Source: Burkholderiaceae bacterium
GTDB taxonomy: Bacteria; Pseudomonadota; Gammaproteobacteria; Burkholderiales; Burkholderiaceae_A
NCBI GenBank assembly: GCA_018882785.1
Contig: VERI01000001.1
Coordinates: forward strand, 1 to 64,000
Length of the DNA: 64,000 bases
Reading direction: 5' to 3'
Positions 20,589 through 22,428 of this stretch are shown piece by piece; position 1 is the first letter of the stretch; every line of letters begins with the position of its first letter. The notes beneath the pieces are model-generated. The model ran no database searches. It saw only the letters and a list, made by a program, of their open reading frames with translations, and was not told the DNA's origin. The position numbers were made by a program, and so were the translations under genes.

Positions 20589-21599
<1,011 letters not shown>

Positions 21600-21618: not shown

Positions 21619-21648
21619 TTGGAAAATTTTCTGTCTTGGACATATCAT
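21619..21648 (+). promoter_or_regulatory. Candidate sigma70 promoter of the small RNA
   Basis: TTGGAA-N18-TATCAT (-10 matches 5/6); +1 expected near A21655. Confidence 0.6.
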
Positions 21649-21654
21649 GAACAC

Positions 21655-21748
21655 AGACGACTTGTCGTCTCCCGCTTCTCCTCCCTGAGCGGGTGCCTAA
21701 CCCATTTAGGCGTTCCCGCCCGGCGAATGATTCGCCGGGTTTTTTTTT
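21655..21748 (+). ncRNA. Candidate trans-acting small RNA with anti-Shine-Dalgarno loop
   Basis: Four stem-loops: AGACGA(CUUG)UCGUCU; CCCGCUU(CUCCUCCCU)GAGCGGG (with a U-G closing pair); GCCUAA(CCCAU)UUAGGC; CCCGGCGAA(UGA)UUCGCCGGG plus U9. Confidence 0.75.
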
Positions 21749-22428
21749 GTCTCCGGTGGCGCTAGAGGATCGGTCGGAAGCCCCCACCATTGTGCAATTT
21801 TTTCCAGCACCTCGTCTCGCCCGATTCGGCGGGTGGCCGAGAAAAGACTGACCGAGCACTGCGGCCCCCAGGAGTCCTGGTGCTCAGAGATGGAGCGGCG
21901 TGCCGTCGCCAATGCCTTTGCCTGTTCATTTCGGGTCAGCTTGTCCGCCTTGGTGAGCAGCACGTGAATGGGCTGTCGACGACGACTAAACCACTGCAGC
22001 ATCTGCAGATCCAGCGGGCCGAAGGGATGCCGAACATCCATTACTAGGATCATTCCAACCAGGCTGGATCGAGAGCCGAGAAATCCAGCCAGTTCCTGCT
22101 GCCAGCGGGCTTTGACGGCATGGCTAACGGCGGCGTAGCCATAGCCTGGAAGGTCAATCAGCCGGCCCACCTCGCGCTCTTGGTCCTGGAGGCTGAAGAC
22201 GTTAATCAGCTGGGTTCGGCCAGGGGTCTTGCTGCTAAAGGCCAGTCGCCGACGATTGCAGATGAGGTTGAGTGCCGAGGATTTGCCCGCATTGGAGCGG
22301 CCAGCGATGGCAATCTCCCCAGGGCCGATCATGGGGAGATCAGCGGACTGAGCAGCGCTGGTGAGGAAACTGATTCTCTGTATCCAGTCCTTCAGCGGCG
22401 GAGAAGGGCTGGCGGTTGGCTCGGACAT
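21706..22428 (-). CDS. engB: Ribosome biogenesis GTP-binding protein YsxC/EngB
   Basis: GRSNAGKSSALN, DLPGYGYA, LTKADK G-motifs. Confidence 0.93.
   Translation of the reverse strand: MSEPTASPSPPLKDWIQRISFLTSAAQSADLPMIGPGEIAIAGRSNAGKSSALNLICNRRRLAFSSKTPGRTQLINVFSLQDQEREVGRLIDLPGYGYAAVSHAVKARWQQELAGFLGSRSSLVGMILVMDVRHPFGPLDLQMLQWFSRRRQPIHVLLTKADKLTRNEQAKALATARRSISEHQDSWGPQCSVSLFSATRRIGRDEVLEKIAQWWGLPTDPLAPPETKKNPANHSPGGNA
21719..21748 (+). terminator. Strong plus-strand intrinsic terminator
   Basis: CCCGGCGAA-TGA-TTCGCCGGG followed by T9; flanking genes are on the minus strand. Confidence 0.88.

Follow-up and report, generated by a model that had tools for sequence, protein, structure and literature searches.

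What is the chain of hairpins that lies on the plus strand between hemB and engB, in the 64,000-nucleotide stretch of DNA analysed here (the window), and what might it do? The original prediction, made by reading the sequence, took it to be a small RNA whose loop could occlude ribosome-binding sites. The features on which the argument rests are as follows.

20589..21599, minus strand: hemB, porphobilinogen synthase (NCBIfam NF006762, 509 bits); start at GTG 21599 or ATG 21593; divergent from the sRNA.
21619..21649, plus strand: promoter region in a sigma-70 reading, TTGGAA (21619-21624)-N18-TATCAT (21643-21648), seen directly in the sequence.
21621-21649, plus strand: promoter region in a degenerate sigma-E register, GGAAAA-N18-TCATG, seen directly in the sequence.
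21655..21748, plus strand: anti-hemB (RF02837) small RNA of about 94 nt, from Rfam, model R2 and folding, with a putative 5' end.
21655..21670, plus strand: hairpin 1, AGACGA(CUUG)UCGUCU, outside the Rfam model, from covariation.
21671..21693, plus strand: hairpin 2, CCCGC(UUCUCCUCCCUGA)GCGGG, with the anti-Shine-Dalgarno loop, from loop conservation and the paired stem.
21695..21711, plus strand: hairpin 3, GCCUAA(CCCAU)UUAGGC, from covariation.
21719..21748, plus strand: intrinsic terminator, a 9-bp stem with a 3-nt loop (21719-21739) and nine Ts (21740-21748), from sequence and folding.
21706..22428, minus strand: engB (yihA/ysxC) GTPase (NCBIfam TIGR03598, 200 bits; open reading frame list); convergent with the sRNA.

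Folding of 21655-21748 (+) returned the four adjacent hairpins as both the minimum free energy and the centroid structure, with an energy of -41.6 kcal/mol compared with -24.8 +/- 3.2 for shuffled sequences (z = -5.33; of 200 shuffles, 0 reached this stability). With 0 mismatches, the CCCGC-loop-GCGGG hairpin carrying CUCCUCCCU occurs a single time in the 64 kb, where the chance expectation for the pattern is 0.03 even with 3 mismatches allowed. The four back-to-back hairpins are as originally described, and the chain is a genuine sRNA-like object. The flanking genes were also correctly named and both placed on the minus strand; one correction is that the RNA is not wholly intergenic, since the 3' end of engB overlaps its terminator on the opposite strand. 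Across 21706-21748 the complement of the terminator encodes the C-terminus of EngB (KKNPANHSPGGNA).

An Rfam scan of the whole window gave one match only, RF02837 (anti-hemB), which scored 69.3 bits (cut-off 49.5) and covered model positions 1-81 of 81 at window positions 21668-21748, in agreement with the call of a plus-strand sRNA. Our own model R2, built from beta- and gammaproteobacterial sequences, scored 65.9 bits (1.6e-16) and found the sRNA to be the sole scoring region of the window; it replaced R1, an RNAalifold-derived model with a poor structure. Two kinships suggested earlier did not hold. The Betaproteobacteria toxic sRNA family (RF02278), for which RF02837 is the fitting substitute, reached 23.8 bits against a cut-off of 50, and ar14 (RF02344), an alphaproteobacterial model that we take to represent the relatives of the CcsR/cuckoo RNAs, reached 13.6 against 58.8; with scores so far under the cut-offs, membership of either family is rejected. 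A covariance-model search with Spot 42 (RF00021) gave nothing at the window with E<=10. The RF02278 RNAs (the double-hairpin ncS03/05/27/62) resemble the window RNA in a CU-rich anti-RBS segment and a strong terminator but have two hairpins and occupy other loci. The host has a true double-hairpin sRNA of that family, with CUCCUCC segments, on a different contig at G000:C5:6576-6638 (-) (locus L009, 63.8 bits). By its model match, the window RNA is a new member of the catalogued family RF02837, and as an object it is ordinary.

That the RNA is already known escaped the original prediction. In B. cenocepacia J2315 it is ncS04, a 105-nt, Northern-confirmed transcript with a start mapped by dRNA-seq and an end mapped by 3' RACE, which co-purifies with Hfq and lies between BCAL0264 and BCAL0265 in the orientation <- -> <- (PMC5688073, PMC4603805). 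The window has the same context and direction, with hemB on the minus strand, the sRNA on the plus strand and engB on the minus strand. Anti-hemB was also predicted in B. pseudomallei (PMC3521395); PMC5688073, PMC4603805 and PMC3521395 all leave it without an assigned function. The window RNA shares with RF02837/ncS04 the full model match, the synteny, the strand order, the anti-Shine-Dalgarno loop hairpin, the third hairpin and the terminator. It differs in that the Rfam model lacks hairpin 1, in its promoter, and in the terminator hairpin, where most Burkholderiales families have a second C-rich loop (CUCCCCUUU) that is absent in the window's family and some others.

Of 400 Burkholderiales genomes, 283 had RF02837 matches (E<=1e-4), as did 122 of 158 genera; in the window's own family the count was 16 of 26 genomes. 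Two sister-genus genomes (L031, L032) show weak second RF02837-like matches of 34-36 bits at other loci. Aligning 66 sequences that represent about 36 families showed the CCUCC core of the hairpin 2 loop to be invariant, as is the GAG downstream of it; the CU between them is nearly so, and the stem is 100% paired. Hairpin 1 shows two-sided compensatory changes at 6 of 6 pairs, with 93% of cells paired, and hairpin 3 at 5 of 6 pairs, with 89-92% paired. Over the whole structure there were 107 two-sided cells (shuffles, 24), and pairing dropped from 94% to 37-50% when the partners were slid out of register. The original prediction had staked itself on loop and stems being conserved in relatives with the same hemB-engB synteny, and both are. 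Since hairpin 1 lies outside the Rfam model yet covaries, the four-stem description is better than that model at the 5' end, and this covariation across Burkholderiales is an addition to the recorded knowledge of the family.

The exposed, conserved anti-Shine-Dalgarno loop, its fixed stem and the covarying hairpins point to pairing in trans with ribosome-binding regions, and from this anatomy a trans-acting, RBS-occluding regulator is our best guess too. We consider it probable that anti-hemB acts as an Hfq-dependent trans-acting translational repressor, that its family was ancestrally controlled by sigma-E, and that the window carries a degenerate form of the promoter. The RNA would have a promoter of its own, stop at the intrinsic terminator and presumably owe its stability to Hfq; hairpin 2 would offer its exposed CCUCCCUGA loop to the Shine-Dalgarno regions of target mRNAs and, by pairing with them, block translation, while the flanking hairpins would fold, protect and terminate the RNA. 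The family would thus be an envelope-stress sRNA by ancestry, served by a sigma-E-type factor and related to Pseudomonas ErsA, with a promoter that may have drifted or been replaced in two groups, the window's genus and the Burkholderia clade.

Targets were searched for by sequence pattern in the host's congeners. Perfect matches to the seeds CAGGGAGG or GGGAGGAG before ATG yielded no gene shared among three congeners and no outer-membrane bias; the seed-matched genes, named by eye from sequence, were TctC-like, NuoF-like, cytochrome-c-like and IspA-like. At porin start regions of other Burkholderiales, some with mis-called starts, the loop paired via the ordinary Shine-Dalgarno sequence only (p = 0.12 versus shuffles). 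Porin starts paired slightly better than those of hemB and engB (p ~0.02), a difference that probably reflects stronger Shine-Dalgarno sequences. Porins, attractive as targets by analogy with ErsA and RybB, therefore received no support from the two computational tests. The finding of no specific extended target in the seed and porin tests is what would be expected of a Shine-Dalgarno decoy or general translation dampener, whose loop would bind many ribosome-binding sites with no specific targets, as proposed for the RF02278 RNAs; the loop indeed resembles the 16S anti-Shine-Dalgarno sequence, and one of those RNAs, ncS27, attenuates growth and has a CU-rich segment predicted to cover ribosome-binding sites. 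We nevertheless regard a decoy as unlikely, because the conserved segment extends beyond the anti-Shine-Dalgarno core (CCUCCCUGAG), which suggests more specific pairing, and because toxicity of anti-hemB is unreported in the literature searched.

The genomic neighbourhood raises the question of whether the RNA acts on its neighbours. Within the 3 kb fetched, both hemB and engB flank the RNA in 42 of 45 strong loci, the exceptions being L036 and L055, with no engB detected, and L057, with no hemB detected. This very stable synteny, the start of the sRNA about 56 nt upstream of the divergent hemB and its overlap with the last engB codons on the opposite strand could all be accommodated by a cis-antisense RNA that binds hemB mRNA in its 5' leader or engB mRNA at its 3' end. 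A class-wide search, however, placed the same RNA in other surroundings: RF02837-like matches were present in 95 of 387 genomes (E<=1e-6), 21 of them over the cut-off, and in the fetched loci (L241-L262) the RNA was beside engB in most, and in 12 of 22 its other neighbour was polA. Action in cis is distinctly unlikely, given that in these other Gammaproteobacteria the upstream gene is polA and not hemB, that the RNA points away from hemB, and that an antisense RNA needs neither compensatory stems nor an invariant CCUCC loop core. Six of the non-Burkholderiales gammaproteobacterial loci (L245, L249, L259, L260, L261, L262) hold two to four tandem anti-hemB-like copies about 200-290 nt apart, and several copies have their own sigma-E-type promoters.

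Pairing in trans remains our preferred reading, and the promoters suggest when such a regulator would be made. Most relatives carry [GT]GAAC[TC]-N17/18-TCNNA directly upstream of hairpin 1, a feature that the original prediction also missed. A sigma-E-type promoter (GGAACT-N17/18-TCNNA) was present in 87 of 124 Burkholderiales loci and 33 of 36 families, whereas dinucleotide shuffles gave a mean of 0.63 and a maximum of 3; the loci are the best-scoring ones and do not sample the family at random, and related sequences among them are not independent. With the last position loosened the count was 97 of 124 versus 1.85 in shuffles. The motif has a fixed spacing and a narrow range of distances to hairpin 1, and it recurs in 14 of 17 loci from other Gammaproteobacteria (shuffles, mean 0.21). 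The motif corresponds to the sigma-E consensus, given for E. coli as GGAACTT and TCAAA (PMC2893595), and the rybB and micA promoters read GGAACTTTT and GTCAAA (PMC1804206). Enterobacterial RybB and MicA, sigma-E-driven sRNAs with GGAACTT promoters (PMC1804206), are alike to the anti-hemB family in this respect but differ from it in sequence, structure and location. From the promoters and the synteny together we infer ancestral sigma-E control. Neither a sigma-E-dependent sRNA of betaproteobacteria nor family-wide promoter and synteny evidence was found in the literature searched; the presence of such a promoter in most related bacteria seems to be new, and suggests that the whole family takes part in the envelope-stress response.

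The window itself departs from this pattern. TTGGAA-N18-TATCAT, the promoter originally proposed, is present and plausible but is not the sole candidate, as GGAAAA-N18-TCATG occupies the same place and is in register with the promoters of sigma-E type that relatives carry. This degenerate form is found in the window's genus, and the strict motif occurs in only 2 of 14 loci of the window's family. The shared register leads us to read TTGGAA-N18-TATCAT as the putative vestige of a sigma-E-type promoter or its replacement. A Burkholderia-like clade with large genomes (L033, L034, L060; a presumptive clade name) has a sigma-70-like sequence and no sigma-E motif, which would explain why ncS04 looks constitutive, its level being unchanged across all conditions tested in B. 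cenocepacia (PMC5688073, PMC4603805).

The position beside engB is shared with two well-known sRNAs. Spot 42 of E. coli occupies a polA-sRNA-engB position (PMC3295665) and ErsA of Pseudomonas the polA-engB gap (PMC8575079); ErsA depends on AlgU/sigma-22 and on Hfq and represses the porin OprD (PMC8395346, PMC7264166). The sRNA of the window and its relatives lies beside engB and faces it, and so does ErsA (loci L264-L293). Of 30 Pseudomonadaceae engB loci, 17 gave R2 matches to ErsA, with scores of 20-28 bits and E values of about 6e-6 to 1e-3; the best reached 28.4 bits (E = 5.8e-6 in 112 kb). The hairpin layout is similar, and ErsA and most anti-hemB relatives have in common the C-rich terminator loop and the sigma-E-type promoter, of which the window's own copy is degenerate. 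ErsA differs in that hairpin 2 with its CCUCCCUGA is missing, polA takes the place of hemB upstream, and the model match is weak. Because ErsA lacks hairpin 2 and the score is partly that of the terminator, common descent of the two is likely, not proven. Spot 42 (spf, RF00021) agrees in the position and direction of polA-spf-yihA(engB) but is CRP-controlled and sugar-related (PMC3295665); R2 scored it at 15.5 bits (E = 0.02), a marginal value, with no further match in 112 kb, so that common descent is only suggested. That anti-hemB, ErsA and possibly Spot 42 form one ancient engB-adjacent lineage, from a sigma-E-dependent ancestor with a CCUCCCUGA loop, is a possibility we take seriously while rating it somewhat short of probable.

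It could be argued that GGAACT arose by coincidence or belongs to a promoter of sigma-70 type, and that the family is unrelated to envelope stress, as neither the window's genus nor the Burkholderia clade relies on the motif and some -10 boxes also read TATCAT; this is very improbable in view of the motif's frequency over expectation (87 of 124 versus 0.63), its constant spacing and tightly limited distance to hairpin 1, its independent recurrence where polA is the upstream gene, and its presence at ErsA, whose AlgU control is experimental.

A catalogued RNA to which no function was assigned thereby gains a testable role, that of an envelope-stress sRNA, which our data suggest is common to most Burkholderiales and many other Gammaproteobacteria. 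Should the single lineage be real, three separately named sRNAs (anti-hemB, ErsA and Spot 42) would be tied to one chromosomal site, and beta- and many gammaproteobacteria would share an unrecognised envelope-stress sRNA under the label of a 'Burkholderia RNA'.

In the host, rpoE is encoded with rseA- and rseB-like genes behind it (the latter two named by position and sequence only). GGAACTT-N15-17-TCNNA was not enriched across the host genome (5 matches versus 16 for a reversed control, an uninformative comparison), and in the host's family, where rpoE closely follows fabF, no sigma-E motif was found immediately upstream of rpoE. A LexA-like reading of CTGT-N8-ACAG, seen at some sister-genus loci, was dropped as the sequence is not conserved. 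Between the promoter elements of the window (21632-21642) lies a TGTC-TTG-GACA-like palindrome (TGTCTTGGACA), which is kept in the window's genus and has the form TGTCCTAGACA in the sister genus; it is possibly an operator.
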